Part shown: positions 1 through 36,100 of the stretch, in pieces
Numbering within the stretch: position 1 is the first letter of the stretch
How the letters are laid out: every line of letters starts with the position of its first letter
Origin: Tubiluchus corallicola
Lineage: Eukaryota > Priapulida > Priapulimorpha > Priapulimorphida > Tubiluchidae
Direction of reading: 5' to 3'
DNA: 64,000 nt
NCBI GenBank assembly: GCA_030141605.1
Contig: JAQGDQ010000128.1
Location: 1-64,000 of the forward strand
Position numbers and translations under genes: made by a program
Notes under the pieces: model-generated
Told to the model about the DNA's origin: nothing
Seen by the model: the letters and a program-made list of their open reading frames with translations, nothing else
Database searches by the model: none

Positions 1-283
1 AGTGTTTAGATAAGCAGCTAAAGCCAGAGCTGCGCAATCAAAATTTTCTGAAAATAAACAGCAGCCATTGATCGAAATATTTATGTTGAAATTTGCATTT
101 ATTGTCAATTAATTTCAATTCAGTTCAATAGTTTCTGTATTTCTTTGATTACATTTTAAAGATTACTTGATTTATCACTAGTGTGCGAGATTCTAGGACT
201 ATATAGTGAAGGCAGTTTCCGCACTATCAATACTGCATGATAATAATAAGTGATATTCAGTTAATACATACACGTTTTTATAG
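1..283 (+). other. Intron 2 (3' part) of P450 copy 1
   Basis: No exon is visible here. The stretch ends with the acceptor TTTTTATAG just before exon 3 at 284. Exon 2 must lie further upstream. Confidence 0.8.
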
Positions 284-5026
<4,743 letters not shown>

Positions 5027-5281: not shown

Positions 5282-7571
5282 TTTTCTATAATGCGTGTAC
5301 ATGTATTGTATATAGTGCAATAACTTACATAACAAAATGTATTATGTAGCACTGGTTTTTGATTATGATATAATATATCGTATGCAGTGTGCATTATCTA
5401 GGTGCTGTTGATGAATAACAGTTTTCTAACAGAATCGAAAAAATTATAAGCTGCTCGAACTGTTGCCTGCAGATGACTTTACCTGGAGGCCAAAATCAAG
5501 AGTTGAATGAACATTTTTAATCTTCATCTCCCTCCCTTATTAGGAGTTTAACCTATATTGTCTAATTGGTACAAAGCAGACTGTTATCATCATGAAATTA
5601 CCTGGTGAAATTAATTAGCAGTTGCATTTCCAAGTGCATAATTCGATAAGTAAGTTGAAGCCGATCTATGTTTTAACATATTAAAATATTTTACCTGAAC
5701 GTTTATGTGCATACAGCATTGAGGACTTAGATTAAAATTACTTACAGAGAAATATAAATCTACTTTTAATGTAATGATGGTGTTAATTAAATGCTGTGAC
5801 TAAAAATTAATTAAAAAACTCTTTTTCATTCTATTAAATGTCCTGCAAGTTAATTATTTAAATTTCATTACAAAAATTTATGTACATTTCATCGGACAGC
5901 AATATTTTTTTATGTAGTAAAAGTTGTAAAGACACTTGGTTGGCAGCTTTTATGCATGCAGATGTTCGTTTAGAATTTCAAAATGTTGTTTGGGATTTTC
6001 GTTAAAAGAAGACAGGATGATTTTTTATACACTATCCCATTTTCAAGTACGGTAAAAAGTATCCATTTTAACACCAATAGTACTATAAACGCATTTTGCT
6101 TTGCGGAAGCGAAAATGAAGCTACTGTAAGAGATTCAGTTTGTTGTTATAAAACTCGGCAAGTTTTAAGACAAAAATTCAAATATCAACGCAGTGTTCAC
6201 GCATTAGCGGTCGAACGTATGCAGTACGTCAGAAACGAACACATTTGAACTGAGAGGACAGCGCCGGTTTTTTTGCAATGCAGAATGGCGAATGCATGTA
6301 ACAGCGACGGGTAAGTGGCGCGAACGCCAAATTGCGTTTATGCGGTAACAATTCTTTCACGCAAGGCATTCTGGAAAAAATAATTTAAATACTGCTTTAA
6401 GTATTTTAAAGAATAAATTATTTTGACTTGCAGTTTAAGATGCGCCCGGTTTTGCTTTAAATTATAACTTTCGTTCACATTAAGTCTACTGCTTTTTCAA
6501 ACATTTGTCTCTAAATGTTTCTTTAACATTCTAAGTCATTTTGCCAGATGTAAATTCGTAACAGGTAATTAACGGTAACAATCGATACATTTTCAACAGT
6601 TTTCCCGCAAGTTGTCCAACCTTTGAAAAAATCTACATATTATTGTACTATTATGTGTACTTGTATTATTGAAAACATAATCTTGCTGTCACTTGTTCCT
6701 CTTTACTTGTGAAAATCAGTTTGTGACTTAAATGAGTCAAATGCGGTTAATTAGATTCTTAGCGCAATGAATAAAATCCTACATCTAGCACCAGTTTCTT
6801 TTATTTTCAATATAGCCAAATGATCTCAACCTTCCGAATCACCCGATATCTCATTCACTGTTAGTTTAGGCCCTATTCTATGTATTTAACTCAATCAAAG
6901 TACACAACCTATGATCACGAGCTTTAACGCCTCACGTTATTATTGGCTAGAAAAACTTTGCCGACAAGGTCATGTGTGATTTGCTCTCAATTTTCGGTGA
7001 TATGTTTACAAAATTTTAGGCAGTATATTTACCATTTTGCATGTATTTGGAAAAGTTTGGGTAAGTGGAATTTAAGGAATAGATGTCTATATTTTTTTCT
7101 TAAAACTTATTATACTTTTGATGATGATTGGCAGTGCGCTACTTTCCTTCAAGACGAATTACGTCGCTGGAAGAAGAATGGACATTGAAAATACGAGCGC
7201 CCAAGCATGAAGTGATAGTGACATTAAAATTATTTTACTCGTTAAACAAGTTCGTTGTTGCAATTTTATTACCAGATCAACATTTTTCGCAAACATTGAA
7301 ATAAGCCTAACTTCCTAGAAAGCTCAGCTTTTCCTTTAATTTACCACTTTCTTAACCAGAAAATATATAATCGTCTAGTACTTTTAGTATAATGCATTCT
7401 AATAGAAATTGTTACTATTCACGATTACAATATAATGACCTTAAAAATTGTACCCATAAACGTTTGTACGCACACATAGTGTTTGTGTGACTCATAACTT
7501 GTATCTATGGGTTGCTATAATAACTTACATACTAGGTTAAACAGAAATAAAACTCTGGTTTTTTCAGATTG
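5282..7571. other. Intergenic region between P450 copies 1 and 2
   Basis: No convincing coding exon. It contains repeat R1 (6001-6468) and a short shared motif at 7296-7345 that recurs at about 58670-58722. The last bases before the copy 2 start form an acceptor-like TTTTTTCAG. The promoter of copy 2 is expected in this region but no core element can be assigned. Confidence 0.6.
6001..6468 (+). repeat. Interspersed repeat family R1, copy 1
   Basis: Collinear with 12833-13446 in the same orientation. Shared marks in order are GTTAAAAGA, CCATTTTCAAGT, TTTAACAC, GAAAATGAAG / GAAAATTGAAG, GGCAAGTTTTAA, GTTCACGCATTAG / GCTCACGCATGAG, GCATGTAACAGCGA and GCAGTTTAAGAT. No coding potential seen. Confidence 0.75.
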
Positions 7572-7970
7572 ATGATGGCAAATTTGAGGCTTATGGACGT
7601 GCTTCTGCACTTAGATGCTGCAACTGTATTACTGTTATCATTACTAAGCCTTCTCACTGTTTATTGGTTAAGTTTTCCGCGAGGACTTCCGCCTGGACCT
7701 ACCGGAGTACCACTAATGGGATATATACCATTTGTAACCAATGTGCCATACATAAAATTTGCAGGTATGCTATCGACCCCATTTTCTCGATCAAGCAAGT
7801 GGTGCTGACAACTCGTATAGCAGCGTCTAGTTTTTTGTTATATTTACTTATTTACTGCTGTGTTTACCTATCTTGAGGGCAGATTTCCTTTATATGTTTA
7901 GAATTCCGAATTCCAGATGTCTGGAACAGACATAATTGGCATAATGATGATGACGAAGCTAGTGCTGTTG

Positions 7971-8056
7971 CTGCTGATGATGATGATGACGGTGGCGGTG
8001 GCGGTAGTGACGATGATGACGATGACGACGATGATTATGATAATGATGATAATGAT
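7971..8056. repeat. Imperfect (GAT/GAC)n tract in intron 1 of P450 copy 2
   Basis: Trinucleotide repeat of GATGAT and GACGAT with a GGTGGC insert. It is intronic and short. Confidence 0.85.
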
Positions 8057-9515
8057 CTCATTTTGCTACTTTGAGACTCACAGATTTTAACTATTGGTGA
8101 TGGCAACAGCAATGGCGAGACTGCCTCAGTTGGAAATAGAAAAATACTCTTTCTCGAATAACAGCAAAATAGTTTATATTTAATTGACGTTTAAAATCAT
8201 GTCATAAATGCAATCAGAGCTGAAAATAGCCCACTTCATTCAGGCGACTTTGGGCCAAGCTTTGACCAACTTGTCCTATGCCTAAAATGAGCTCATCTTA
8301 TAGCTAACATTACCTTTACGCAGATAAACCAAATAGACCCTGATTTTAATTTTATTGTGTAGCATTTACACAAATATTTATTTTTCGTGAAACTTTTGTA
8401 TTCCTTATAGGTCTATAATGTCGAATTATGTATAATATAGTCATGAACAGCAATATATATACAGTTTAATTTTCCATATAAATAAGGGATCCTTATTTCT
8501 TTCACTATGTTAGAAATCTCATTTCAAATGAATTTTTTACAGAACTTGGCAAGAAATATGGACCAGTGTTTACTGTCTGGTTTGGAAATATACCCGTGGT
8601 TGTCTTTCATGGTTTTGACGCAGTGAAGGAAGCTTTTGTAGACAGAGAAGCAGATTTTATGAATAGACCTACTCATTACTTTTATTTGCTTCATAAGATT
8701 TCTGGCGTTGATAAAGGTAACTATAGTTATTGCGCAATTTATGTGGATCCGAATATCACTGTAGATAACAGTTTTTTAGCTGGTGTGTGTATGTGTGCTG
8801 CGCTAAAAGCGCACTACTATCTAAATGACTATTGCATTGGATTCATAATGCTGATAGAAGATGGCGCCCACACTAAAATCGAAATTAAAGAACGCAGATA
8901 AGAAGTGACTAGCTAGTTCTCAACTAGTTCACAAATATAAATATTGCACAGAAATAATTTTACAATTGATAGACCAGTATAACAAGCCAAACTAACTACT
9001 ACAGAAACTGTGGCCTATGCGTTCTAAGGTTTACGTACCTGTACATTAATGAATCATAAAACGTCAATGCCAAGTTACTGTATCATAATTACACTTAACG
9101 TGAACGTAATATGAACTTGAAATTAAGTCAATGCATACCTAAAATCAATGCTTCACGATAGTTATAAATTTAAAAAACCTCAATTAACATATGGTTTGTT
9201 ACTCGCACGTGTGCACGCAAACATATGCGAGCACACGTCCACACGCATGAGCCTATAATTTATAATTAATTTTTTGCGTTACTTTAAAACATTTTTTCAG
9301 GGTTATTTTTCACTGAATTTGGAGAGCACTGGAAAAACACCCGAAAATTTACCCAAACGGCACTTAAAGATTTCGGCGTTGGCAAAGTATCTTTGGAAAA
9401 TCGAATTCTCAGCGAACTAGAAGCTGTGTCTACAGAATTCGCAAACCTGGAAGAAAAACCTTTCAACCCTCGAAAAATCCTTATGATGGCAGCATCAAAT
9501 ATAATAGCTTCTATA

Positions 9516-9518
9516 TAA
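9516..9518 (+). other. In-frame stop made by an 8-bp deletion, exon 3 of P450 copy 2
   Basis: The reading frame entering exon 3 gives ...SNIIASI then TAA. Copies 1 and 3 read on through NFGKR or NFGAR here. The difference is exactly the eight bases AACTTTGG when compared with copy 1. The donor AAG|GTAGGT follows at 9522. Confidence 0.9.
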
Positions 9519-11868
9519 AAGGTAGGTGCATCACGCTTTTCGTCTCTGACCAACGTATTTTAAAATCAATATTGACTTTCTGTACAAAATATTACACCTA
9601 TCCTACCTTCCTTTTTCAAACAAAAGGTTTGATCTAGTGTCGTCTCGTTGATGGTTTATTTTTCGAATCAGGCCCGAAGAAAGGGGGCTCGAAAAAACTG
9701 ACCGTTTTTCGCACGACTTTTACTCCTTATTTCTAGAGAAAGGGAACCTGCTGCATGGAGAAGTGTTTATAGTGGCATATTGGTTGGATAGACCGTACAA
9801 TGCTGGGAGTAGTACTCATATTTAAAATTCGCCGGAGACATACTGTTTTCAGTAACGAGTGTTTTCCGGGACCCATACGCGCAAATTTTACGAAAAATTG
9901 TACAAGCGGCCTCCAAAGAAAATCGATTTGTGCAACTGTTTGGGCATGTAGGAAAAAATAGGCTCACCATGGAAAGACGTTAAACATCGTTCACAATACT
10001 ATTGAATTTGGAAGTTGTTGAATTTTGGTTGACATGGAAAGAGCCCCTTGATCTTACAAGGTAATGCAGCTTGGAAAGGTTTTGGCTTTTTTACTTTTTT
10101 TCTGTCATGTTCTATGCGAGAATGAGAAACAAACGCGCGTTAGGGCCTATAGGTCTACCCGTTCTTTGAAACATTCAGCCGTTGGGACAGGCGGCCTGCA
10201 AAAAATCTTAAAATGAGCCTGAACTTGTTTAGCAAAACCGGCGCGTCAAATCAACCGTCTAACCGTTCATTGAAATGTAAACCTGCATGCACTTCATTTT
10301 GGATGAACAGGCTTCATGCGTAACTCATTCAATTAGCAGCCAGATCTATTAACGGGATCCATTAGCGGGCTTTGTGTATATTTGAGAGGCGGGGCTATCT
10401 GTATTCTTGATGGTACCCTCGATGAAAACTCCGTCAATGTGCCAAGTTTCAGCTCCGAATATGCAATACCGGAAGCGTGCATAAAGAAACAGATACCATA
10501 TACGCATTCACGCATGCACACACGCGCACACATGCACGTGCGCAGACACATCCTATGTAATATTTTATATTAGCATGATAACTGTGATATTATTGTGGTT
10601 ACTTTAGGATGGATTATACCGACGAAAAATTTATAAAGCTGGTTGGAATAAATGAGGAATTCTTTCAACTCCCTCTTTCTTCCTCGCCAGTCAATATTTA
10701 TCCTTGGCTGCGGTTTATTCCCGGATTTAGCACCACTCCCAAAAAGGCTTTTGCAGCTAACGATCGCATAAATTCTTATATCGCAGAGGTATGTAAAGCG
10801 GAGATTACCCTATTATTGTTAACCAATATGTGTAAGATTTTTTGCATAATTAAATTATCAAGATAATTATCCATAAAAATAAGAATTTTATCCGAGATAA
10901 AACCACGATTTCCACAATGAGTAATTTTTCGAAATGGGATTTTTTTAGTTATCTATGGAGTCCTCGTTCATAGTATTTACATATTTTTCAAAAGTGTTTT
11001 TATTGTTTTTCAACAATGCACAGAAATGGCGAATGAGTTTTTTTTAATTTGATGGAATTAATTGAAAATATAAGCTTTAATGAGAAAAGCGGAATTTTTA
11101 TTGTTTAGGCATCAATTAGAAATTTGTTCTCAATAATCATTATAACCACCATCGTTATGTTCATCCTTCAGCTCCTCCACTTTGTATTTATCATTATAAT
11201 GCTCTGCTTCCACCTCGTCATTGCCATTATCACCATCTGTCATAGCCCTACTACCAATATCGCCATCGTCTTTCTCACCTTCGTCCTTATCTTCCTCTCT
11301 ATCCTTCTCATCTTGTTGTCGTTGTCGTCATGAAAATATTAGTTTTTTGAGTAAAATGTCTTATTTTTCTCAGACGCACAGTAGCTTCATTATCAAAGCA
11401 AGGTCTGGATTCAAGTGCGTATTCAAAACTGTCGAGTTTCAGTGTAATGCTGGATGTTACTAAGACCTATCGCATTTTTTCACTCTTTTTGGACGTCTTA
11501 GACATTCAGAACACTCCGCTACAAGACCTATTCTGAGTTGAATTAGCACCTTGACTGGCACCTATTTAAGTAACGACGTTAATCCTTTGAGTTGTGGGTG
11601 TATAGATTAAGTACACTCACTATTTCTTACAGAACTCTGTTAGTGTCAATTTTCTTTCTGAAAAATGTAAGCACCTCGTTATAATGCAATAACTATCTCA
11701 TTATTCTCATCATAACGACTTACTGATTCGAGCTACTACCTCTCATTATAACGAGGCAGCTATGTCGCAATAACGAGATAATTATATTTTTTCAAAAAAA
11801 AAGTTGACACCAATGGAGCTCGGTTGCTTGTTGCCTATGCCTTGTTTAGACGGTTGTTGGATGTTGTT

Positions 11869-11935
11869 GGATGCAGTCGGGCTGACGTCGGAAGATGTCG
11901 GACGTGTCAACTTACACGATCCGATTTCTATCCGA
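11869..11935. repeat. GTCGGA-rich module in intron 4 of P450 copy 2
   Basis: Short degenerate direct repeats of GTCGG/GTTGG(A), ending with TTACACGATCCGATTTC. It mirrors the TCCGAC-rich module at 13447-13585 in inverted sense, so the two may be ends or relics of one mobile element about 1.7 kb long. Confidence 0.4.
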
Positions 11936-12025
11936 ATAAACTTATGGTTCTAATTATCCGCAAAATAAACAGTATGAAGAAATAAAATATAATTGTTCTG
12001 TTCATTGTTAAATGCTGTAGCCCCG

Positions 12026-12170
<145 letters not shown>

Positions 12171-12282
12171 CCTCCTCTCTCTTTCTGTCTTTATAAATAT
12201 CTATCTATCTGTTTTTGCAAATAGATGGTGTGCGTATATATGTAAATATTGCATACGTGTGTGTAATTTACATATTAACAAA

Positions 12283-12428
<146 letters not shown>

Positions 12429-12517
12429 TTATTCTCTCTCACCCTCTCTCCCTCTTTCTCCCCTTCCATCTCACCCTTTTTCTCCCATCTATCGATCTTA
12501 CCATCTTCCCCTCTTCC

Positions 12518-12520
<3 letters not shown>

Positions 12521-12574
<54 letters not shown>
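12521..12574. repeat. (TC)n microsatellite, intron 4 of P450 copy 2
   Basis: About 54 bases of TC, preceded by a pyrimidine-rich stretch from 12429. Confidence 0.95.
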
Positions 12575-12576
<2 letters not shown>

Positions 12577-12832
12577 CTACGCTACTTGTAAATAGTTTAA
12601 TGTGCGCATAATATATTTAAAGTATTTAAATATATGCGTAATAATGAACAGCTGTAATTTGCCTTATTTACACTATTTAATATTGTTTTTCATATTCATA
12701 ATAGTCAACATGATGTCACGTGAACGCAAGAAGTGTTGTTATTGGCTGTCATCCCAGAAGTCGGAAGGCAGGTGGAAAAAAAGTTGAGCAACTTCTGACT
12801 TTCATCCCACATCAATGTTGGATGTTAAAAGA

Positions 12833-13446
12833 CAACAGGACGATTTTTCATATGCTACCTCATTTTCAAGTCAGATAAAAAGTATACATTTTAACACAAT
12901 TAATACTGCAAAAGCGTTTCTGATAATTAAATAATAGATTAAAAACTTAATTAACAGCGGGCGAGCCCAACTATTCACAAACTAACATAATTTTCAACAG
13001 TAAAAAATATTCCACGAGCGTGTTGCACGTGTTTGCGAAAGCGAAAATTGAAGTACAGTGCTACTGCAAGACATTCAGTGTGTTGTTCAAAAACTGGGCA
13101 AGTTTTAAAATAAAAAAATCAAATTTCAAATTACTGCTGTGCTCACGCATGAGCTGTCGAACGTGTGTAGTTCGTCACAGACTAACACATCTAAACAGAG
13201 AAGTAGGTGAAGCACCTGTTTTTGTGCAATGCGTTTCCGAAATGCAGGCATTAGTGCCCGTCTAACCACCGAGTGGCGAAATGCATGTAACAGCGAAGAA
13301 CTGGCGCGAATTTGCAATTGTGTTTGTGCGGTAATAATATTTTCACGTTTGTCATTTTTGAAAAAATAGTATACTTCCTTTCAATATTTTAAAGAGTAGA
13401 TTGTTTTGTCCTGCAGTTTAAGATTGAGTCCGACTTTGCTTTAAAT
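12833..13446 (+). repeat. Interspersed repeat family R1, copy 2, in intron 4 of P450 copy 2
   Basis: Same family and orientation as 6001-6468, with about 115 extra bases near 12905-13020. Its right edge runs straight into a TCCGAC-rich module (13447-13585). Confidence 0.75.
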
Positions 13447-13585
13447 TTTCTCGTTTACACGACGTTTGACAAAATCTGTCCGACATTTTGTCGGATGACT
13501 TTGTCCGATCGCGTAAACGATTTATCCGACCTCGTCCGACTTCATCCGACAATCCGACTTTGTCAGATCGTCTGTCGGGCATTAT
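13447..13585. repeat. TCCGAC-rich module in intron 4 of P450 copy 2
   Basis: Carries eight or more degenerate TCCGAC/TCCGAT units, plus GTTTACACGACG and CGTAAACGA arranged as an inverted pair. The look is that of subterminal repeats of a DNA transposon, but no clean ends or target duplication could be fixed. Confidence 0.45.
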
Positions 13586-15235
13586 ATAACTAGCTATGGT
13601 CATAATTTCAGTTCATTGAAGAACATCGTGCTAGTTTTGACAAGAACAATGTCAGAGATTTCATTGATTATTACCTGAAAGGCTCATCAGAAATGCAAGA
13701 AGGCCGAAATGAGAAATGTAAGAACATTTGCTGAGTGTATAGGGTTTAGGAAATCATTGTATATCTATTATTTTTCGCATTTCACTTTATTTGAATTAAC
13801 GTATCATTTTCTTTTAACTCATTACAATTCATTACCGCAATATCCAGTCTTACGAGTTCATTATAGTCATGTTCCGATACATAAAAGGCAAACTGTACAA
13901 AAATTATGTTACGTGTATTAAGTAAAAAAAACAGCCAGTCACTGAGTTAAAAAATAACTACAAATTTGATAATTCATTACACGTTAATACTGACGGGAAT
14001 ATTTATTAGTACGGTCATATAGCAAATATCATATCATTAAACAAGCAAAATTATGCAGGCACAAATTTGTAGTAATAATTACTTACAACATTTCTTTTTT
14101 ATGCAGGGACAGACGAACATTTGTTCTCGATCATAACGGATTTGTTTAGTGCTGGGACAGAGACAACTGCTGCAAGTCTTTGTTGGTTATTTCTGTATTT
14201 ACTTAAGCATCCAGAAATACAGATAAAAGTACAAGCAGAAATTGACAAGGTATTCTTTATAGTAAACTGGCTGAAATACTCGATGTTAATGGGATTGTAA
14301 GTTTTTTTACGCACTGCAGCTCTCTTGAATTTATGTAAAGATGCATATTGCACGTGCCAGATTGCTTAACCTAAGAATACAGCGGTTGTTAATGTCTGCC
14401 CTTGTTTTTTATAATTTGTCCATATTTCAGCAAGTTTATGTAAGAAAAGGTGTGTAAGTAAGGTTAGGTTATATAATATAACACAACCTCTCTCCAGTTT
14501 AGGTGACACTGTGTCCATTAGCTTATTTGAATTTCGTAAATTCACGAAAATTAATGAATTTTCTAGTTTGCAAAAGGGCCTAGCTCGGCTTGAATGTGAA
14601 TGAGTGACACAATCCTTCAGATTTCAGATATAGCTTCTTTAAAAATCCTATGTTCATCAGTAAAATGACAGTCGATCATAAAATGAGCTAAAAATTTTCC
14701 ATTCTCTTTGCACATGACTGTGTAATCGAATGAAGGGAGGGATGGACAAACGAACAGGCAGAGGAAGGGACGACGCGGACGAATAGTGGGACGAGTGGAT
14801 GTACAGAGAAGCTCAAGTACCGCTGAGCATGTGAATAAACAAACTAACAAACAGACAGACAAACATGAATGAGCGATCTAAGCTAGCAAATGAACAAATT
14901 TAGAAATTGAACAAACGAATGAACAAATAAATAATCAAATAAATTGACATTAGGATTAAAACCCACATACATTTACTTTTCTATATTTCTACATTGTTTC
15001 AGCGTGTTGCTAAAAATAGTCTAGTAATACTTGTGATTCTGTATTTAAATTTTCTTGTGCAGGTTATTGGTGACAGGTATCCTAGATTTAGTGATCGCAA
15101 TGACATGCCCTATGTTAATGCAGTTATCAGTGAAATGCAACGTCATGCTAATATCGCTCCACTTGTAGCTCCGCACTCACCTATAAAGGATACGACATTC
15201 CGAGGATATAATATTCCACGGTAAATAGATTCAAA

Positions 15236-15720
15236 TAGGAAGAAAAGGAAATTTTAAAGTACATCTCAAAGAACTTTCCATACAAAGTTATATTACTTAG
15301 CCTTACGCTTATCTGTTTGAAAGACTTATGATACTGGAAAAGAAAAATCTTCATAATTTAAAATGTTCAGCCCAGCTGGTAAAATGGCACAGCATCACCA
15401 TCCCAGTGTGCAACCATGATTCACCAAAAATACATTATTGATCTTATCGACAACATAAGTTAATTTATTCTTCTGGTTAGTTAGCGAAGAGTGAGCCACG
15501 AATGCTCTGATTATTTTTTCAAACTTTATGCTATGTTATCTAAACTTGTTTTAAACGACTTATCGTCAAAATAGCTGTGCTTAACGGTCATCGTGGGAGT
15601 TTAATTTACAAGTTTCATAAACTGCTGACACAAACTTTGTATGCAATAAGACAGCATATAAGTGATACAAAATTTCAAGACGAACTTTTTAAGCGTTATT
15701 TATGAAAAACGTTTTCTTGG
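15236..15720 (+). repeat. Interspersed repeat family R2, copy in intron 7 of P450 copy 2
   Basis: Begins about 15 bases after the exon 7 donor. Marks in order: GAAGAAAAGG, ACTTTCCATACAAAGTTATA, CCATCCCAGTGTGCA, ATGCTCTGATTATTTTTTC and GCAATAAGACAGCA. The same order is found at 28163-28650, 42170-42640 and, inverted, 43640-44035. Confidence 0.85.
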
Positions 15721-17104
15721 GTTTCGGGGGTTAAGAACTATGAATTAACCAAACAGTTTGTATTTAGCTAGATTGTAAGTGAACAGTTCTCAAACGGCAA
15801 TTTTTATCCGAAAAATTTACAAACAAATGAACAGTTTTTTGAGACTCAATTGGAGCGTATCACTGTCATTGCAGAGTCGGACAATTGAGATAATCACTTG
15901 ACAATTGTTACGGTCAACTGAGATTATGCGATTTCTTGTAGACTTACAAAAATTCACTTGTTTATTTGAGCACTTTAAGCATAATATGACGCGCTTTTGT
16001 TAACATAAGATTATTGTCATTTTAGCAATTTCAATTTATAAATTTTCTTAACTGTGCCTGTCTGTAGTGAAACTGTGTGTAATTGATTAGAACTTTATAT
16101 TAATATTACCGAAGTTATAGATAGGAACTGGTTTACTTTTACTGTAGTATCGTTGCATATGTTAAACTAAGATTCGTTACATATAATATATATAATGCAA
16201 TGATGTTATAAAATATTATTTTATTCACAAAGCAGAATGTGATGATGACCCTCTTGCGAAAAACGTTCCAATTTTCAAAGGCCGCATGACAAAAATATGT
16301 ATGAAAAAAATGTGAAAACAACCCATTCATATGTAAATTACCATTTAAGAATTGTTTTTCGTCCATTTCAGTCGTAGCCTTGTATTTGCAAATTTGTATT
16401 CAGTACATCGGGACCCAAAATACTGGACAAGCCCTGATGAATTTAATCCGAACCGCTTTCTAGACGAGTCTGGCAATTACGTGAAACATGAAGCGTTCAT
16501 GCCTTTTTCCATTGGTAAAAAACTTATATAAGTTTTTCAACGCGCGGAAGAGCATTTTTTTATTTAATAATGCTAATGCTTGTATAAAATGTTGTTTTTT
16601 AAATAGTTCACGTAATTTTTTTAAATTTTGATGCCGGATTGTGTTCCGCCTTTTAGCACTTACCTAAACTTCGTGCGCTTTCCATAAAAATGACATTTTT
16701 GTGGAGGTTACCAAAAAATATATTTCATGCCGCAAAGTAACTATACTTAAACGTGTTACGTTGTCCCGTACCAGCATGTATTTTAAATAGCGTGGTTTTT
16801 ACCTTTATAGGTCGCCGTATATGTCTAGGAAAGCAACTTGCAACTATGGAACTTTTCATGTTTTTCACTTTCCTGTTACAAAGGTTCCACATAAAAGCAG
16901 CGGATGATTCTGAAGTCAGTTTTGAGTCCATTTATGGGATCACAAGATCTGCGAAGCCCTACGAAATTGTTGCAGAGCCAAGACAGTATTAGCTGTTGAG
17001 ATGAATTGTTATCTCATAAGAATGAAAAAGCTGTGTTAACATGTAATTTTGTCCTGTTAAGGGATTTAAAAAGTCACTTTTCTTTGCTCGTAAATATCCA
17101 CAGA

Positions 17105-20615: not shown

Positions 20616-22290
20616 GTTGTAGTCCTTGAGTCCTAAGGAGTATGGCACTTCTAAAAGCGTAGTCGTACGTTAATGGTACCACTCAGCATTCGTTTCAAAA
20701 TGCGAACACCAGGACCAGATTAGCTCTGAGATAACTTTAGGCGAGCGATATAAACTCCCTTATTGGACCTTCAATTATAGGATTTGGAACAGTGTCGGAA
20801 CAGCAGTTTGTTAATTCAAAAAATGCTTGACAGCCTTAATGAGGCATTTTATAATTTCGGGGCGTCAACTTACAATTTCAAAAATTGCTTGTGTTATCCA
20901 AAAGGGAAGCTGATTTACTATACTTGTCCTATCATCACAGAGTCCTATATGCACTTGCGTTTTTGGTATAGGGTAAAAGTTTTGTTTTTCGTCCCTTTTT
21001 ATAAATCATTCACTATGTGGTTGGAGATAAACATCATGATGATTAATATTTAGATAAGATCAACAATTTTTTAAATCGTGTTTTTTTTTAAATGATGCCA
21101 ACTTACACTCAGAAAAGTGATAATTCAGCTGAAACTGGCTGTTACTGTTTAGTGAAAGAATGTAGCTTTGCCAAGACAGATTTGTTTTCATTTTTTCTGT
21201 AAACTTTAACACTGTTCCCTTGTACTAGTAATACTACTTGGCTAGTTTGTCTGCAAAAATACCGCACGACGTAAGAAACCCACGTGCATGCTTCTTTGTG
21301 AAGTTGAAATTGTTTGCTTCATATTAGTAGAACAAGTTTAATTGTTGCTGTAACAATTTTCTTCGTAGCCGTCGCTTGCCCTTGCATAGACAAGCCTTCA
21401 GTGTACGCCAAGAACGAAACAAGTAAATAAGCCTATTTACATCGCATACAGTAAACGACTTATGTTTGGATTGGCGACAACTACATATTTGGCTTGGACT
21501 GGCTGCATGTTTTCGAATGATCACACCATTAATTTTTTTCTTTCTACTGATATGCCTATAATGCAAACAAAAAAGAATGAACATGGACAAGATAGCCTTG
21601 GCTCTATTTACAGAGAACCTGTTGCTTATAAGAGGTACCACGACTCCCTTCTATAGTCTGCACGGATCAGCAGAACTAGCAATGATGGCATATACTTATG
21701 TTTTTTTAAAAGCTTTTTCCGATATATTGAAAAGTGCGAACTTCTCAATTTAGAAGAGGCAGGAAGACTACGTTTGTTTTAATTCGTTTTATTTTTTTTC
21801 GGACCTAAAGCTAACTTGGTGTGATACAAATTCAGCGATGCATTCCGGGATACAAATTCAGTGATGCGTTTCGGGTGGTGACCTTTGATCAATCTAGGCA
21901 CGCAAATCAAACGTAACTTAGACCTCTGATCCTAAGCTCATTTCATCACGTTGTTAGAATAATCATTAAAAGTGGTTAATCGAAATAATTATTGTTAATA
22001 GCTGGACCTGAAAAATTTTGCGAGCCGCACTATATTACTTAACCAGTTAGTACTTAATAAATTTGTAGGGGAAACAACTAGCCTTTTGCAAGTGCCGGAA
22101 TCGAAATTGGGTAAGTGTTACTCTACTATTCGAGCTGTTATGAAATTGGCGTACTCTGTGTTAGCTTGAAGTATTGCGTTTTGGTCCTGTTAAGTATACT
22201 TTGTCAAGTGTTTTATTTGCAGTCTATGAGATATGCAAATACACAAAAGTATAAACGACATTATATCGCTTTTTATTTGACAGAATAGCG

Positions 22291-25200
22291 ATGGCAAGTC
22301 TACAGCTTTTAGACATGTTACATTTGGATCTAGGAACAGTACTAATAGTCGTTGCAGTGTTCATTATCACCCTCTACTGGTTGAGTGTTCCGCGGGGACT
22401 TCCACCTGGACCTTTTGGGCTACCATTGTTGGGATATATACCGTTTCTAACCAAAGAGCCATACATACAATATGCAGGTAGGTTTGCCTCCAACTGTTGC
22501 ACAATTCGGTTTCGAAAGTTGTTCCTGTACATTAAAATGTACCACATTCAGTATATTAGAATTATATCAACGCACCATGTGAAAAGGCACGATGTTATTT
22601 GGGAGAAAATGTCTGACATCTAGTGAATAACAATTCTAGAAGTACATGTTTCGCTGCCTACCATGTATAATACATCGCATCGTTATGTGACGTAAATGGT
22701 TACTGGCATTTGCCCCGCTGTTGTCGATGAAAACGATATACATTTACCTGGCATACACATATCAAGTGGCGCAAAAAATATGCCAAGGTTTTCATCATGA
22801 TATTATAAGAAGAAAATAACGGAATTGCTCGAGAATTATCACACTGATATTACGCTGATATATAAACACCAGAAATTTTATGTCACTCCCTCAGACTTTG
22901 TTATATTTAACTAGAATTTTATATTAACTAGTTCACGAAATAAATGCCGGAAAAAATTTTGTGCGTTACTGTTGATAAAATATACAACCAGTGCTCTATG
23001 TGTCACCATTTCAATAGAAACTAGACGAAGGCATTTCTTTCAACAACTGACAGTTTCTCAATTGGGGTGTTTGGTGTTCAACCATTTTTGCTTTAGTTCC
23101 TTTGCATCTAACGGCTCTGTGCGAGCCTTATACATTTTCTCTTTATACCGAATCCAGAGGATTAAAGTATCATTTTTTCTTGACAACAAATCTTTAGCAG
23201 TTATTTATTTCCTGTATTGAAGATTACAATGCAAGCTAGTTGATTTCATTATTGTTTTGCAGTCGTGTATTGTGAATGCTTTATACGTCAACATAATTAT
23301 TCCTCGGTTGTTGATGATTAGATGACATCATTCCGGCATTTAAATTTTTAACATGTAGAAGTTTTTCGGCCGTAAGTTACAAATTAGGGGAAAGCGGGGC
23401 AAGGTGGAAGGGGCTAAGCAGTTTTACTTATATGTAATTAATGTTAAGGTGTACAACATTGTCCCCTTCTGTTTTTTAGTGACGTTGTCTTTCCTACTTC
23501 TTACAGAAAAATGTTAATTAGTCACATGGACCATTATAGCAGTACTTCTTTGCCGTAGTAAGCGTTTTAAAAATGCCATATGAACTTTTTAATTATCAAT
23601 AGGTTTTTTCGTCGTAAATTATTGTCTTTTTAATGTAATGTAATTTAATTGTGTTTTAACTTCAGTGTATCTTAATTAATGTAATGTAATGTCTTAGAGT
23701 AATGTAGTTTAATTGCATTTCAAACCTCAGTTTCACTCAATTAATGCAATGAAATTTAACCTTCGCGTTACAAGATTTTTTAAATAAACTTATATATATA
23801 CTTGGGACCATTATAGTAGCACTTCAGATCATTATTTTAAACCTTATTTTTATCTCGCTGCCAAAGTAAAGGTTAAAATGAAAAATGTCATTGGAGTAAA
23901 ATTAAATGAATGATTCCAAACAAAACGTTATTTAATAGGTGATCGTGATAAATTCTTTTACAGAAACAATTGATACTGAACGGAGAAAGGTATACATTTT
24001 CCTGTTTAGTTTACAATTCTACCTGACTTCCCTAATTCTCATGGATTCGTGTAACTAAAAATGATGCTTACTTATACGCCTGTAAACCCTGATCATGTCT
24101 CTGTGCAAAATAACATTTGGAGTACATTTGGAGTAACATTTGGAGATTACATATATGACAGGCTTGACCATGTCTACGTGTTAACGGTTCTCCAGCAATT
24201 TTAGTGTCAGTGACAGCATATTTTAATTTTGCATATTGTGACATAAATGTATTCGAACTTAGTAAAACAGATTAGCTGTCTATATGTCAGAGTTTCGCAG
24301 GGGCAAAGCCAAATATTTTCTCTTTGTCCCACGTTATGGTCGCTCTGACAATCCTTTATCATTGATCCACACAAAAGCAAACTGGTTTCAAAATTAGCAC
24401 AAAATTTCGCTAAATACTTTTTCGGCGTCTGAAATCCTTTGCAGTACTATCACTTCCTACACATAATTATAGCAGTTACTACAAATTTTTCTGCAGACGC
24501 ATACGTGAAAAAACAATGGCATTTGCAGAGACGTCTGTTGGGAATTGTTCAAAGCATAAACTGATTTCACGTGTGACAAATGCTTGAAATCCCAGGCCGT
24601 TCCTTTTTACCCCATTTTCCGCTACCAAACTTATAAACTTGTAACTTTCACTTTCATGCACACACGCACGCACGCACGCACACACACACACACACACACA
24701 CATATTGTTATAATATAATTGCTAAATATAATCACTTTGTTTTTTTCTTATATATGTGGTCTTTTCAGAGCTAAGCAAGAAATATGGACCAGTGATGTCT
24801 GTTTATTACGGATCTGTGCCAGTTATTATTTTGAATGGTTATGATGCCGTGAAGGAAGCCTTTGTAGACCGAGAAGTTGATTTTATGAGCAGACCGCTAA
24901 GTATCTTTTACGTACCCCAAAAGATATTTGGCAGGCATAGAGGTAAAAAAATAATACCGAAATTCAAACATGTAAATTTTATTATATATACAAATATGAA
25001 ACTCTATATATATAAAACTATATAATATAGAGTTAGCTAACTATGTTGGAGATCCCTATTAATTACACGAGTGATCAATAGCAGCCAGTAAGCTTTTTCT
25101 TTCTATTTTATAGGACTAATTTTTAACGAGTTTGGACAACACTGGAAAGCTACTCGGAAATTTGCCCAGACAGCTTTGAAGGACTTTGGAGTTGGCAAAG

Positions 25201-28200
25201 TGTCGCTAGAAACCCGAATTCTGAGCGAATTGGAAGCAGTGTCGAAAGAGTTTGTCAAGCAGAAAGAGAGTCCCTTTAATCCACGTCGAGTTCTTAAGAT
25301 GGCAGCGTCGAATATAGTAGCATCTATAAACTTTGGAGCCAGGCAAGTAAATTGCAATGATATTATTAACATGCATTAAGTATTCAGTAATTCCAACACA
25401 CTAGTGGTCTTCTAGGAATTTTTGGGGCAAATGAGGGTTACAATTTGGAAACTCTTGACTCATCAGCCATTAGTAACACTAATCATGACAGAAAATATAA
25501 AAACGAGATATAAAAGTTTAGAGGTGGTCTACTTGAACATATTTTTATCTTTTTCGTACATTTGTAGGATGGAGTACACAGACGAAAAATTCGGAAAACT
25601 TCTAGACATGAATGACGAATTTTTTAAGCTCCCTATTCCTGTCTCGCCAGTGAATTCTTATCCATTGTTGCGATTTGTTCCTGGTGTTGGCGATGTAGTA
25701 AATAAAGCTCTTGGATGTATTGCACGTATTAAGGAATTCACCAAAGAAGTAAGTAGTGATTGACCATGATAGTTCATCTTAGCCTCATAATTTGCTCTTT
25801 AATGCACTCCTAGTAAGACAGTGGATTTTAGTTGACGCATCCATGTCATCAAAACTGGCAATACACTCTATACCATTAGATGTATTAAGAACTTGACGCT
25901 TTATAGATTACGGTAAAAACACGGGATAATGATGAAAATATAATCATAATCTTCTGATCGTGATTCACATATTCTCATAACATCTGTTTACTTAACAGTA
26001 CATAGATGAACATCGTGCTAGCTTTGACAAGGATAACATCAGAGACTTTATAGATTATTATCTGAAAGGTTCAAAAGAAATGCAAGAGGCTGGAAATGAG
26101 AAGTGTGAGTAATAGTAATTTTTCCTAGTGTGCCATTATGTTTCCAACTTATCACTCATTATGTTTATCATATCATTCATATGTTTCACACGTGAATTAA
26201 TGTTCTCTTCTCTTTCGCTTTTGCTCATATCACAAGCGTATATATATATATATAGCCAGATTATAAACTGCACTACCGAGAGATGCAAGCGTTTTCACAT
26301 TGTCTTACAACTTGACGTGGATTTCCAGTGACCTGTACTATCTACCGAAGCATCTACGCTTCACTTTAATTTAGATGCATATACAACAGACGGTTCTTTA
26401 ATATGAATGCAACCGTTGCTATGCCCTCTCTTATTCTGTTTTCATGTATATATGTGTGTGTGTATATAATAGTAGGGTCAATTTACTGACTTACCCCTAA
26501 AAAGTGTAGAAAATGTTTTTTGGTGTTTTCTTGTAGTATTTGGTCCAGAGAATAGCGTACCCAAAATAGGCCGAAATTTGAGCACCACAAAGGGTCTAAT
26601 TATGACGTCAAAAAGATGACTCCCATTTGACGAAAACGAATAGGTATTTAGTCTGCCAGAATGGTGATTTTGACTCAAAGACATAAAACTTTGCGCAGTG
26701 CTAACCAATTTTTCGTTGTTAAAGAGTTTTCGTGTGCCGTGTAGGCGGTTGTATCATCTGCATATTGTGTTAAGCGTGAATTATGTAAAATTAAATGATT
26801 TATTAACATGCAAACAAAAGAGTGAATGACCTAATATGGCACCTTGAGGGTTCCCTCTCTGTGGCGTATCCAATAAGAAAGTGTGTTTGTTCAGGTTGGC
26901 TCTTTGTTTTCTATGAAATAGGTATGAAGCTTTTATAATCATCTTTAGCATCTTTCCTGTGTATTGGAGTTATTTTGCTTGTTTATATATATATATTCAG
27001 TAACGTTAGTAAATGACACAGTAGATTTTGTTACTCGAATCTCGTTTGGCCTATGTTATTCGCTTCTCTTCCTCTTTAGCGCGGACTTGGACTACTAGCG
27101 CGTTACTACATAAAAGAACTTCACGTGAATAAAACTACATTGAAGTACCATTTTTACGCGAGTAAAACTAACCACACGTTCGTTTTGCAATGTCTGTCTC
27201 AAACGAAATCTGCTGTCCCCCCAATAATCAGTAGAAGTAAAGTATTTTTCTCATTTTTGCTATTTTGTTATTAGAACAGTTACATGGACTACATTACATT
27301 ACATGCTTTACATTACCAAACATCATGAAAGAAGCAATAACAAGTTGATAATTTCAGTGACAATGAAAGCAACTGCTACAGCTATGTGGCCAGCAGTGGC
27401 AATTCGTTTAACAGCAGCTCTTTACAACGAAAACAGAGATTTAACTCACCAAATTTTGGTGTTATATTTACTGGAGAAATACATTAAAAAGGCTGTGAGT
27501 TTACTTATTTAAAGCTTGTTTTTCTTTACTATTTTATGCTGCTATGGCAAGCTAAATAAATATGTTATTTAGCTATTTAAATAAGCACTTTCTTACATAG
27601 GGACAGATGAGCATTTGTTCCAAATTATAGTCGACTTGTTTAATGCTGGAACGGAGACAACTGCAACAAGTCTCGGCTGGATGTTTCTGTATTTAATCAA
27701 ATTCCCAGATGTACAGAAAAAAGTACAAGCAGAAATTGATAAGGTATTGTCACAAAAATTGTTTGCTAATTGCTAATTGTAATAGAAAACGACCATATAA
27801 CAATTGAGCTAAAGTTGTTTTAAGTTATTTATGATTTTTTAAGTTATCACAAAATATAAGAACTTTTAGTATCATGGCTTGTTACACATGCTGCTTACAG
27901 GAATTGTTCTTCTTTATGTGCTTGTAGGTTATCGGAGAAAGATATCCTAAGTTTAGTGATCGCAATAATATGCCCTATGTGCAAGCAGCGATCAGTGAAA
28001 TGCAACGTCATGCGAATATTACTCCATTTGCTATACCTCACTCGCCCATAAAAGATACAACACTTCGAGGATACAACATCCCTAGGTAGGTTACAGCCAG
28101 CCTGTACTAACCAATCAAACAATTACACATTGAAGAGATAACTATTGTGTTATAAAAGTAATTAAATTAAAGGGAAGAAAAGGGAATTTTAAAGTATATG

Positions 28201-30325
28201 CCAAAAAACTTTCTATACAAAGTTATATTACTTAACATTACGTTTACCTGTTTAAAAGACGGATGTAATTGGAAAAGCAAATTCTTACTTATTTAAAATA
28301 TTTGAGCTATCAGGTAAAACGGCGCTACATCGCCATCCCAGTGTGCACCACTGATTCATCAAAACACACAGTGGTCTTATTGACAGTATAAAGTAATTTA
28401 AACTTTTGCTTAGCGAAGTGCTCTGCGAATGCGCTGATTATTTTTTCAAAGTTGTGCGCAATGTTATCCAAACTTGCTTCAAAAGACTTACCGTTAAAAT
28501 GACTGCGCCTAACGATCATCGCGTGAGTTTAAATTTGCAAGTTTTATCCAGCATTACTGCTAACGCAAGCCGCGTATGCAATAAGACAGCACGAAAGTGA
28601 TATAAAATTTCAAAACAAATTTTTAAACTTTTTTGCGAAGAGAATTTTTTGTACTTAACTTTATAGCAATCCTTATTCGTATTACGAACTATTTTAGTTT
28701 AGGTAATAATTTCCCGGTGAAATCATAAAATGATGAAAATGGCTTTTGTTAAGTTAAACCGTTAAACTAACTCCTTAATTAAACTATTAACATGCGTAGG
28801 TGGCTGTCAACCATCTGTAACTAGCAAAGGGTTCAGACAGTTAGCCGAATTCAGCACATGCGAAAGTTCCTTTTAAGAAAAATACTTCAGTAAAACAAAT
28901 CTAAAGCAGCCCGGTCTTGTATTATTATGGTAAATGCATAACAAATGATAGTAGACTATGGAAAAATATGTACATGTGAAAATAACACATGCTCATCATT
29001 GCAAAAATTCTATGCCCTTAAAATTGTAAGCCTAATTCAGAATTATATGTAAATTTCTGTTATGTAGCTATTTTCTAGGCCAATTGGAGTAGTAATTGTT
29101 ATTATGGTTTCTCATACTGCCAGGCCTTGACAAGAAAAACAGATGATCTGAGGTGTCGTGGCCTAGAATGACTAGGCAGTAAAAAACAAAACCGCGATAA
29201 CACAGATGTTAAGAACCATATTATTAATAATAACATGAACTATTTTATCTAAAATATAACATCCATCTTTTTAAAGTATTTTATATCCATCACTCAATTC
29301 ACTGTTAAAAGATCATCATTGACGACCATCGAATCATTATTGATCCCACCCGCCCCAAAATTCCATAACAGAAAATATAAAATCCAAATACTTTATATCA
29401 TCACATTGCAAAAGTTGTTTATGCACTTAAAGGTACCGAACTTCGTTGAAGGAAACTTAAGGAACTAATTAACTACAACTTGTTTTAATTCTCGTCAAGT
29501 ATAGCTGTCTGAAAGTTAGAAAAAGTTTCAATTCTTACAGACGCAGTATTATGTTTGCTAACCTGTATTCAGTACATCGAGATCCGAAATACTGGACAAA
29601 CCCCGATGAATACGATCCAAACCGCTTTCTAGATGAGTCCGGGAATTACGTGAAACCGGAAGCCTTTATTCCTTTCTCCATAGGTAAGAACCTGATCTGT
29701 CTTTCCAAGCGCTCCGCGGTAAGACACATAATTAACGCAGTGCAATCTCCACTTTAACTCTCTTGCATTTATATTTTTGTGCCTATGTATGGTGTGCGTT
29801 TAAAATGTGAACAATGTATCGTCATTGAGCAATAGGTTTTTTAACAGAAATCACTTTGTCTTGAAAAAATATGAGAGGCATGGACTGAACATTCAGTCTA
29901 CGAGTATTTTATTATTTGTATACAATACACAGAACAAATATATGGCACAAGCTTTCGTAAAGAGTTCTTTAAAAATGGAAGAGAATTTCAAGTTTTAATT
30001 ATATTATAGATCATCAGTAATGAGTCATTTTCAGTTTCGATGACAGTTGTTTACTCTTGAGCAACTGAGCATTTGAGCATCTAAGATTTTCAAATAATTG
30101 TGCTATCTACTTTTTAATTAGAAAGCATTCTACTTTCATATAGGTCGTCGCATTTGCCTGGGTATGCCTCTAGCGAATATGGAGCTTTTCATGTTTTTCA
30201 CGTTCCTTCTGCAAAGATTCAACATAAAGGCACCGGAGGGCGCTAAGGTTACCCTCGAGCCCATATTTGGCGTAACTAGGTCCGCTGCACCTTACGACAT
30301 TATTGCAAAGCCAAGAACTCATTGA
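22291..30325 (+). CDS. Cytochrome P450, CYP2-clan, tandem copy 3 (complete, 500 residues)
   Basis: Complete nine-exon P450: 22291-22477, 24769-24942, 25114-25342, 25568-25748, 25999-26104, 27601-27743, 27928-28085, 29541-29683, 30144-30325 (TGA). Summed length is 1503 bases, 500 residues, normal for the family. Residues about 12-34 form a hydrophobic anchor followed by PRGLPPGP, so it should be ER-bound facing the cytosol. I-helix AGTETT is at about 308-313, the ExxR pair at E364/R367, PNRFLD at 419-424, and haem loop [10 protein letters not shown] at 438-447 with C445 as the expected haem ligand. This is a monooxygenase working with NADPH-P450 reductase; substrate unknown. The start is chosen because ATGGCA directly precedes the anchor and aligns with copy 2. 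An acceptor-like CAG ends 7 bases before it, so a non-coding first exon is possible. Intron 3 has a GC donor (AG|GCAAGT). Introns run from 171 to 2291 bases. Confidence 0.96.
23631..23756. repeat. Two-unit tandem repeat of about 62 bp, intron 1 of P450 copy 3
   Basis: Two diverged units rich in TTAATGTAATG, each followed by a TTTAATTG...CTCAGT / TTCAGT step. In addition ACCATTATAG(C/T)AG recurs at about 23530 and 23810. Confidence 0.5.
24658..24702. repeat. (ACGC)n-(AC)n microsatellite, intron 1 of P450 copy 3
   Basis: Short ACGC units turning into AC, about 66 bases before the exon 2 acceptor. Confidence 0.95.
25343..25348 (+). other. GC-AG intron donor, intron 3 of P450 copy 3
   Basis: Exon 3 ends GCCAG, followed by GCAAGT. 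Joining AG to GATGGAG at 25568 gives ...[13 protein letters not shown] in frame. Using the nearby GTAAAT at 25347 would put exon 4 out of frame. Confidence 0.88.
28163..28650 (+). repeat. Interspersed repeat family R2, copy in intron 7 of P450 copy 3
   Basis: Same family, orientation and intron as the copy at 15236-15720, starting about 78 bases after the exon 7 donor. A shared insertion before the copy 2 / copy 3 duplication is the simplest reading. Confidence 0.85.
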
Positions 30326-32238: not shown

Positions 32239-33100
32239 ATGGATTCAATAGAAGTCGACGAGGTTAAAATCGCCAACTATCCAAATGGAGCGATCACTGC
32301 TAACGAGAATCTAGCAGTGAAGGCGAACAATACGGACAACCACAGCGATATTGCTCAAATTTTAGAAAGTGAGCTTGGACCGAAAAGAGGCCCCATGACT
32401 GTAGTTTTACCAATCACTGTTTTATTTTTAATGATTCTGGTTTCGGGTGTCATAGGCAACCTATCTACTTGCGTAGTGATAGCTAGGAACCGTTATATGA
32501 GAACTGCAACTAATTATTATCTATTCAGCCTAGCCGTGTCAGATTTGTTGCTTCTGGTGCTTGGACTGCCTCAAGAATTGGTGCAATATTGGCAAGAGTA
32601 TCCATACATGTTTGGACATGTGTTCTGCATTGTACGAGGCATGGCTTCCGAGACATCAATATACGCTAGTATCATGTCAATATCTGCATTTACTGTTGAA
32701 AGATACTTGGCAATTTGTCATCCTGAGCAAAAACACGAAGCATCCAAGCTCTCCAGAGTTGTGAAGATCATTGTAGCTATATGGATCGTGGCAGCTTTGT
32801 GCAGTGTCCCAATTATTATACAATTTGGTATTGTCCACGTACCTCATCCAAGAACTGGTTTACCTATCCCAGAGTCGGCTCAATGTACTATTCGAAACTT
32901 CATTCCAATTGTTTTTGAAGTGTCAATGGCGTTGTTCTTTTTTGCACCCATGTGCGTTATAACAATTCTGTATCTTCTTATCGGCTACGAACTCCGGAAA
33001 ATGCAACTATCTAGGACGTCTTCGGATGCGTCTTCCGACAGCAACGAAGTAGCAGCACGGTTGCAGGTCTGTGCTCGCCGTGCCGTACTTAAAATGCTAC
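32239..33100 (+). CDS. Class A GPCR, neuromedin U / CAPA / pyrokinin receptor type, first coding exon only (N-terminus to loop 3)
   Basis: Plasma-membrane peptide receptor, partial. The N-terminal tail (1-52) has possible N-glycosylation sites at N30 and N34. TM1 spans about 54-80 with G73-N74; TM2 follows with LAVSDLL (D102). TM3 starts near C130 and ends in the DRY-equivalent E154-R155-Y156 with AICHP. TM4 is about 173-193, loop-2 cysteine C216, TM5 about 221-250, then a loop 3 rich in serine. The run ALCSVP...PESAQC resembles vertebrate NMU receptors, while YASIMSISAFTVERYLAICHP also fits insect CAPA and pyrokinin receptors, so the ligand class is inferred and the exact peptide unknown. 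The open frame continues to 33138, but the coding exon should end at 33100, where ATGCTAC|GTGAGT gives a strong phase-1 donor just after RRAVLKML, the usual place before TM6. No TM6-TM7 exon was recognised downstream, so the gene is incomplete here. Start ATG follows a CAG acceptor-like site. Confidence 0.85.
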
Positions 33101-36100
33101 GTGAGTATGCCAAATTACCTGTATTAGAAGAGAATTAACTTACTCAATTGAATTGCATAAAAATTGCTAACTGTGTCTGTTGAAGCTTGTACTTTCAAGC
33201 TCAGCAAATTGTCACACTCTAGAGTTAGCAAGTGGGACAGGGCGGATTTGGAAATGCAAATCGAGAGATAGAGCCTATAGATAAGCACCTTAAATGTATA
33301 AAACCACATTTGCTAAATCCCAGTACCTTACCCTGAATAATTTTAGCCCAATCGATCTACTTCTTCTACATTTGTAGAGTGCAGGCGCCTGCTTAAAACG
33401 GGGCTTATATCGTCAAAACCGTTGGTGATCAAGAATAATATTATTGCATTAAACGCATGAGAATTATGTTAGAATTAACGTAAAAATGAAAGGTTGCTCG
33501 TTTCTCCAATTTGTTTATGTCGCTCCGTTTTCCAAACATGCACGCACAATTTGATGTTCTGCCAAACAGCCTAGAAATAACTTTTAAAAACTTGAATGCT
33601 GTGTGAAAGCAGCGTCGCTGGAGTTGCTTATTGAACCTTGAATCTTAAGTATTGTAGTAGGGAATTATAATCCATTGTTGTTAGTCAACATTCAAGATTC
33701 ATGATGCGCAGCAATAGCAGAATTAACTTCAAACAAATCTTCACAGAATGTTGTGTGCGCGCAATATAATATACATGGCTATACATGATTACGATTGCAC
33801 GTTTTTAGCGCTTTTAGTGTGTGTATTTCGCACCAGCTCAGCAAACGGTATGATACAAACGTTGGTCACCTTAAAATTCTCCCATCTCGATACACAACCA
33901 ATCGTTAACTGTTCAGGACATATAACTATATAGTAACGAAAACTTCGTTTGTTAATAGTAAATACATGTACATGGATCAATTCCACATCAAAAATTTTAA
34001 TACGAATTTCAGCGAGCTTTAAATTTTTTCAAAATTTCGTACAACTTGGTTTGCGATTCAGAATCAGTAGATTATTGACTATTGATAAAGTGAATCCAGA
34101 TGTATTATAAATTAAACTTAATTTAATGTGTTACTGTATCTTGATTATAAGTTCCTAATGGTGATGGATGTAAGTACGGCACCACCTGACCATCAACTAC
34201 TAACGCTACCTACCCGCTGGGTAATCAACCACTAACACTACATGGTGCGGGCGCTTACCACGTAGTGTTATTCCCTCATAACACTGATATGAATTTCTTA
34301 GGTGCAAGCAGTTTAGTAAGTCTGTCGCTGCGTGGTGACTGTTGCCTTGCCTGACCAACCGATTTCAGATTCACAATAATGTTTGATAACTTATATTTTA
34401 ATTACTGCTATACAATTTGTCTCACTCGAATGTATGTCACTTCGCCAGTGGTACAGTTAACCAGTGGTACAGTATAGCCAGTGGTACATTTCGACAGTGC
34501 TACAGTTCGGCAGTGGAACAGTATAGCCAGCGGTAGGTACATTTCGACAGTGGTACAGTTCAACAATGGTACAGTTCGCCACTTTGCTACTTTCTTGATT
34601 ATTGATGCTGCTATTGTTGCTGTTGCTGCTACTGACGTTGTTCTTCTTGTTGCTCTGAGTTTCCTAGAATTGATATTTGACAGTTGACGTTGAAATTCTC
34701 GTCCTCTCACGTCGCTCGTCCTTCGAAAACGCCGAAGTGTATAAATGTAGTAAGATGGGTTGTGTCTGCTATTTGTTTTAAATAAAATCATTTGACACCT
34801 GTCTCAAAAATATGTTTGATCTTTAATCTGTTTGATCACAATAAACTGGTTTGATTTATAGCAAATGCTTAGCAAATTATAAAATCAGATACGAGTTCAC
34901 TTTTCCTAAAACACAGCTTTGTTCGCCGTATCCTTCTTTAAACATGTTTTTGATGTGCCAGATATCACTCTTGCATTTCTAAGAATCGTAATCGGTCATT
35001 TCTATTAGCACTAACCTAATTGGCTTCGATTTTTCTGCTTCAAGTTGAATAAGAGAAGGACGTGAGAACACTCTGGCCTTTATTTCCCATTCACTCGATG
35101 CAGCTCGCAACATCTGGCTGCAATTTACCATCATTGCTTTTCCCAAAGAAATGTTGAAAATGTTGTTTGGTTTCGAACGCGCTCATGCAAAAACTGTTAC
35201 TCCTTGTCAAGTGAAAGTAAAAAACACAAACTGCATCCTTCGAGATGTAATCTGTCCTATTTTTGAATGGCAGAGCAGCTTTCACTACCTGACTCATTTC
35301 ATGTATGCTCGGCAAATTTTTCCGAGAGCCTACTTGCGCAGACATAAAACTTTAATGGGTTGTTTTTCCACTTTCCATCGGGTCATGGAAAAAGGAGATG
35401 TGTCAAATGCTTTTTGCTGAAAAGCTGTTTCAGTAGTATCCAGTTTAGTAATGGTCGAATTTGTTAAATTAATATTAGAACATTTTGAAATCAAGTTTTG
35501 AAATCAAATTTTTCCCATTTAATTTGCACATGTGTGCAAAACCACTGGAAATCATACTGTGGGAAGTCCTGTAAAACATGTTTAGCCTATACATAACACT
35601 ATGTGCCTAATATTACAACGGTGTCAAGTTACTGGCGTGATTGACGAGAATGTTTTGGTTGTTAGCTTATAATTGTAAGAGTTGTGCCACATATTTTCAT
35701 TAAGAAAATGATCTATACAATACAAACAAAAAATCTATGAAACGCGTCATCTTCACAGCCATGCCCTTTATGCACAGTGCTCACAACATGAATCACTGAG
35801 AAACCGATAATTATTGTAACATTGACGTACTTGACAAGTTAAGTGAGCATTTATTGGCTAGCTCCTATCGGAATTGCAATATTAGCCTAGGAACTGTATT
35901 TTCGAAAGTGCATCACCGTGATTAGTCCGAGGCTAAGGCAACTTAGCCTAGCTTTTAAATCGCCGATTTCGCCATGATCCTGCGTGCAAATTACTGTGTA
36001 GACATTTAGCAATTTGTTGATTAGGTACAGAGCTCAGTGGCAAACCGACCGGCACTGTACTTTAGTACTGAGATGGTGAAAATATAGAACATTATAGTAC

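Follow-up and report, generated by a model that had tools for sequence, protein, structure and literature searches.

In the human genome, CYP2D7 adjoins CYP2D6. As described in the excerpts of the reports cited here, CYP2D7 is a CYP2 pseudogene in which a one-base insertion in exon 1 is a hallmark of nonfunction (PMC4709848), and CYP21A1P is a P450 pseudogene that shares a gene block with its working partner and has lost 8 bp of its exon 3 (PMC11795198). The excerpts on human polymorphic pseudogenes describe null alleles segregating alongside coding ones, many of them in multigene families (PMC11576641, PMC2864566), with drug metabolism among the most affected systems (PMC11576641). A literature search for segregating P450 loss alleles returned two papers under broader keywords and none under narrower ones, which is not proof of absence.

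The window analyzed here spans bases 1-64,000 of contig C2128 (566,795 bases), which belongs to an assembly of 343.5 Mb in 2344 contigs. It contains three P450 genes that are arranged in tandem, all on the plus strand, and it carries copy 1 from exon 3 onward; exons 1 and 2 of this gene were found on another contig, C817. The features of the three genes are as follows.

284..5026, plus strand: P450 copy 1, exons 3-9, no lesion seen
7572-16992, plus strand: P450 copy 2, nine exons
7572..7764, plus strand: copy 2 exon 1, with the start codon
8543..8716, plus strand: copy 2 exon 2
9301..9521, plus strand: copy 2 exon 3, 221 nt against 229, bearing the deletion
between 9515..9516, plus strand: junction of the 8-nt deletion, from the alignment with copy 1, the C817 version of copy 1 and copy 3
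9516..9518, plus strand: premature in-frame TAA made by the deletion
10608..10788, plus strand: copy 2 exon 4, orthologous frame open
13612..13717, plus strand: copy 2 exon 5
14107..14249, plus strand: copy 2 exon 6, encoding AGTETT
15063..15220, plus strand: copy 2 exon 7, encoding EMQR
16372..16514, plus strand: copy 2 exon 8
16811..16992, plus strand: copy 2 exon 9, encoding GRRICLG and the normal stop
22291..30325, plus strand: P450 copy 3, nine exons, no lesion seen

By sequence comparison, copy 2 is assigned as a nine-exon CYP2-like P450 gene. The PF00067 model matches it as two pieces, one before the stop (194 aa, E 2.7e-24) and the other in exons 4-9 alone (E 4.8e-88); the matches to copy 3 and to copy 1 from exon 3 on have E values of 4.8e-118 and 2e-101, respectively. 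All 8 introns of copy 2 have GT-AG boundaries, and the translation of exons 6-9, read by eye, contains AGTETT, EMQR and GRRICLG, which we take to be the I-helix, ExxR and heme-binding motifs. With copy 3 as the query, the solved structures nearest in sequence are CYP2C8, 2C9, 2D6 and 2B (among the best 60 of 317 matches).

Exons 3-9 are 229, 181, 106, 143, 158, 143 and 182 nt long in copies 1 and 3, lengths from which copy 2 departs in exon 3 only; exon 3 is also 229 nt long in the C817 version of copy 1, which covers exons 1-7. In the exon-by-exon alignment, which includes four sequences for exons 3-7 and three for exons 8-9, the sole gap across exons 3-9 consists of 8 columns in copy 2 facing AACTTTGG of copy 1 (window 499-506). 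The initial annotation described a gene that keeps nine exons, its splice sites and the P450 motifs, lacks exactly eight bases in exon 3, and thereby acquires an immediate TAA and a frameshift; this description is borne out by the gene models, the PF00067 matches on both sides of the stop, the shortened exon with its lone gap, and the stop codon at 9516-9518. The predicted product, 194 aa long, includes neither the I helix nor the ExxR motif nor the heme-ligand cysteine. Because the motifs lie 3' of the premature stop, the allele as assembled would be unable to make them. No second stop was detected in the orthologous frame of exons 4-9. The retention of the sister-gene introns together with a disabling lesion is characteristic of an unprocessed (duplicated) pseudogene.

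The deleted stretch falls in the INFG segment, which is present in copies 1 and 3 as well as in L044, a paralogue on contig C467 with 60% identity over exon 3, and is only partly kept in more distant paralogues. If the ancestral sequence resembled copy 1, no microhomology is apparent by eye at the deletion junction, and DNA searches with copy 2 exons 1-3 gave no sign of gene conversion from another broken copy. A tblastn search with the copy 3 protein, run over the window, the 10 kb that follow it and 40 kb of C817, detected one exon 3 per copy and no alternative exon 3.

The loss of copy 2 appears to be an ordinary case of P450 birth and death with human precedents. The match with CYP21A1P in deletion size and exon number is taken as a coincidence: in the excerpted description (PMC11795198), CYP21A1P belongs to another P450 family, its deletion is at another position, and it has accumulated further lesions (an intron 2 splice variant, an exon 7 frameshift, an exon 8 nonsense mutation and seven missense changes), compared to only one lesion in copy 2. 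Furthermore, CYP21A1P and its partner have 98% of exon sequence in common according to the same source, whereas the P450 copies in the window are far more diverged. The lesion described for CYP2D7 is located in exon 1 rather than in exon 3. In the human polymorphic pseudogenes, as the excerpts present them, both alleles have been observed, whereas for copy 2 only the null was seen.

Could splicing rescue copy 2? Given that the TAA precedes the exon 3 donor, only a donor further upstream could avoid the stop. A scan of copy 2 exon 3 with a matrix built from 29 donors of these same genes, and hence including the scored sites, yielded three in-frame GT or GC sites before the stop with scores of 2.76, -3.9 and -4.7, none of them a plausible donor, compared to 11.63 for the normal exon 3 donor, the top score among the 29. 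Skipping of exon 3 breaks the frame (221 nt now, 229 nt in the sisters), and the residues lost belong to the INFG segment that copies 1 and 3 and L044 retain. Thus, although the splice sites of copy 2 are intact, including the best-scoring exon 3 donor, it is extremely improbable that the gene still functions, either through splicing around the stop, a bypass considered in the initial annotation for which donor scoring offers no plausible in-frame route within exon 3, or through a role of the truncated product. Nonsense-mediated decay is expected where exon junctions lie downstream of a stop; with six exon junctions 3' of the TAA, the copy 2 transcript would be predicted to undergo such decay.

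The donors of intron 3 vary among the copies, with GC in copy 1 (513-514; both contig versions) and copy 3 (25343-25344), and GT in copy 2 and, apparently, in L044. Copy 1 additionally contains an out-of-frame GT 7 nt upstream of its GC donor, with a low score of 2.8.

To estimate the selective pressure on the three genes, we fitted a codon model, implemented in our own script rather than a standard package, to 374 codons of exons 3-9 (damaged codons excluded) on three branches. A single omega for all branches is 0.133, and free omegas for copies 1, 2 and 3 are 0.186, 0.144 and 0.098, respectively; the value for the copy 2 branch (0.155) does not differ significantly from that for the others (0.123), and omega = 1 on this branch is rejected (2dlnL of 25.7; profile of approximately 0.10-0.26). 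For exons 4-9 (303 codons), omega of copy 2 is 0.196 vs 0.138 for the others, with 2dlnL of 17.2 against 1 and 1.05 against one omega; the corresponding values for copies 1 and 3 are 0.227 and 0.108. Exon 3 alone (71 codons) gives 0.057 for copy 2, not significantly below 1 (2dlnL of 2.9). For exons 1-2 (120 codons, with the C817 version of copy 1), omega of copy 2 is 0.41, which is not significantly different either from 1 (2dlnL of 1.6) or from the other branches (1.9), so that these exons may be compatible with a slightly older relaxation of selection. Over exons 3-9, the codon model indicates for copy 2 a history of purifying selection much like that of the other two copies. The low omega can mean either that too little time has passed since the loss to leave a trace, or that no loss took place. 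The synonymous distances between the copies range from 0.94 to 1.73 (Nei-Gojobori), and therefore the P450 copies are old, whereas the lesion itself looks young. The comparison of dN/dS for copy 2 (omega of 0.155) with that for copies 1 and 3 supports a recent loss, which the initial annotation had read from the single lesion in an otherwise clean gene.

The age of the lesion can be bounded from the number of disabling changes that would be expected to accumulate after the loss. In the 497 codons of copy 2, stop-creating changes account for 3.4% of substitutions; we took an indel rate of 0.10-0.20 per substitution, assumed that 0.8 of the indels are frameshifting, and included 35 splice-site and start-codon bases. 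In the introns of the copy 1 overlap between contigs described below, 19 gap events were counted vs 119 substitutions, with 16 of the 19 lengths not a multiple of three. Under these parameters, one unit of neutral divergence should bring 205-324 disabling changes, and the 95% upper bound on the time since loss is 0.009-0.015 substitutions per site. Thus, with no second lesion in copy 2, the neutral time since loss would be bounded at roughly 0.01 substitutions per site.

The ends of two contigs overlap across copy 1 (window 1-4140 vs C817 1-4306). With a GA repeat (680-1030) and everything past 4085 excluded, mismatches between C817 and C2128 number 119 in 2841 intron positions (4.2%) and 8 in 817 exon positions (1.0%); the codon changes are 6 synonymous and 2 nonsynonymous in 271 codons. 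The two contigs probably represent two unmerged haplotypes, the simplest reading of an overlap that stops at the contig ends. They could instead carry two tandem paralogues, in which case the population argument set out below no longer holds, and fixation and segregation of the null become about equally likely.

C817 also contains a 432-base insert, opposite window position ~3062 in copy 1 intron 6 and absent from the window, which is flanked by an 8-base direct repeat and has inverted ends; we assume that it resembles a hAT-type short element, and its presence on one contig only suggests a likely insertion polymorphism. The 8-base direct repeat brought up a hAT footprint as a candidate origin of the copy 2 deletion, which we set aside because the missing bases appear to be unlike the hAT target consensus.

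If C817 and C2128 are haplotypes, the lesion would be younger than the typical coalescence of alleles. Given an allele divergence of about 4% (0.02 per lineage) and a null younger than 0.015, a neutral null usually would not have become fixed yet. Of the three options raised in the initial annotation (a recent pseudogene, a segregating null allele or an assembly error), all reasonable readings of the locus, this population argument favors the second one. With slightly better than even confidence, we therefore propose that copy 2 is a recently functional gene with a null allele that is most likely still segregating. Under this scenario, a CYP2-like P450 that was working until very recently would have been turned into a null allele by one 8-nt deletion near the end of exon 3; translation would halt after 194 residues, the transcript would be degraded by nonsense-mediated decay, and the null would coexist with an intact version of the gene in a species of high heterozygosity, its loss being tolerated presumably because two sister genes adjoin.

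The sequence evidence would be identical if copy 2 were a young pseudogene already fixed via drift, a bottleneck or selection, with the sister copies covering the function, and DNA searches with exons 1-3 indeed recovered from the assembly only the lesion-bearing copy 2. A second version of copy 2 was not detected with exon 3 DNA (three matches: the window itself, and copy 1 and C817, both at 78%), with exons 1-3 DNA (57 matches, 40 out of 1787 candidates being scored: 100% identity to the window itself, 78-81% to copy 1 and C817, and many partial intron 1 matches on other contigs at 69-81%), or by protein search (86 scored out of 473 candidates). A G-protein-coupled receptor fragment at 32239-33138 likewise has no second version in the assembly. 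With copy 2 and the receptor fragment each present in a single version, the assembly appears to hold one haplotype at both places. The presumed haplotypes are 4.2% diverged, some three- to fourfold more than the bound on the time since loss (~0.01), and neutral fixation usually takes longer, so that we view a fixed pseudogene as unlikely although a serious contender. It is very improbable that the null, in a gene long under purifying selection, was favored as a response to altered diet or toxins, having either swept recently or been maintained as a balanced presence/absence polymorphism.

The assembly itself is a potential source of the lesion. Stretches of 9.9-10 kb are 100% identical across contigs C1787, C2264 and C2138 and across C457 and C2 (two sets compared), and protein search showed the same pattern on further contigs, a sign of redundant assembly paths and of an assembly that is not a clean haploid reference. 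A lone lesion in a strongly constrained gene is what would be seen if the gene were intact in the animal but the assembly or its consensus were in error or mixed two haplotypes, and in the excerpted human survey, reference sequence errors accounted for 4 of 15 likely segregating pseudogenes (PMC2864566). However, the eight bases deleted from copy 2 do not form a repeat, and no lesion was seen in the 23 exons of copy 1, its C817 version and copy 3. The usual homopolymer or short-read errors do not take the form of eight bases lost from non-repetitive sequence. We consider an error rather unlikely.

Under the favored reading, that of a segregating null, copy 2 would be a clean example of how gene death begins in a tandem P450 cluster, and the deletion can be used as a genotyping marker. 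The case leaves the known picture of P450 evolution unchanged. It is also a warning to automated annotation pipelines, in which copy 2 may end up as two separate genes.

Several other features of the window were observed. No match to Rfam was detected in it at the gathering thresholds. Among solved structures, the G-protein-coupled receptor start at 32239-33138 is nearest to neuromedin U receptors. A diverged repeat is present at 6001-6463, upstream of copy 2, and at 12824-13447, in copy 2 intron 4, with pieces at 69% and 80% identity. The region at ~7797-8069 in copy 2 intron 1 resembles many other contigs (69-81%), and simple GAT-type repeats are abundant; this region could be a dispersed element or low-complexity sequence. 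Finally, a CAG resembling a splice acceptor is located 4 bases before the start of copy 2 (7565-7567) and 7 bases before the start of copy 3 (22281-22283), and on C817, a TAG ends 7 bases ahead of the copy 1 start codon; such acceptor-like triplets near start codons might reflect a 5' UTR intron or trans-splicing.
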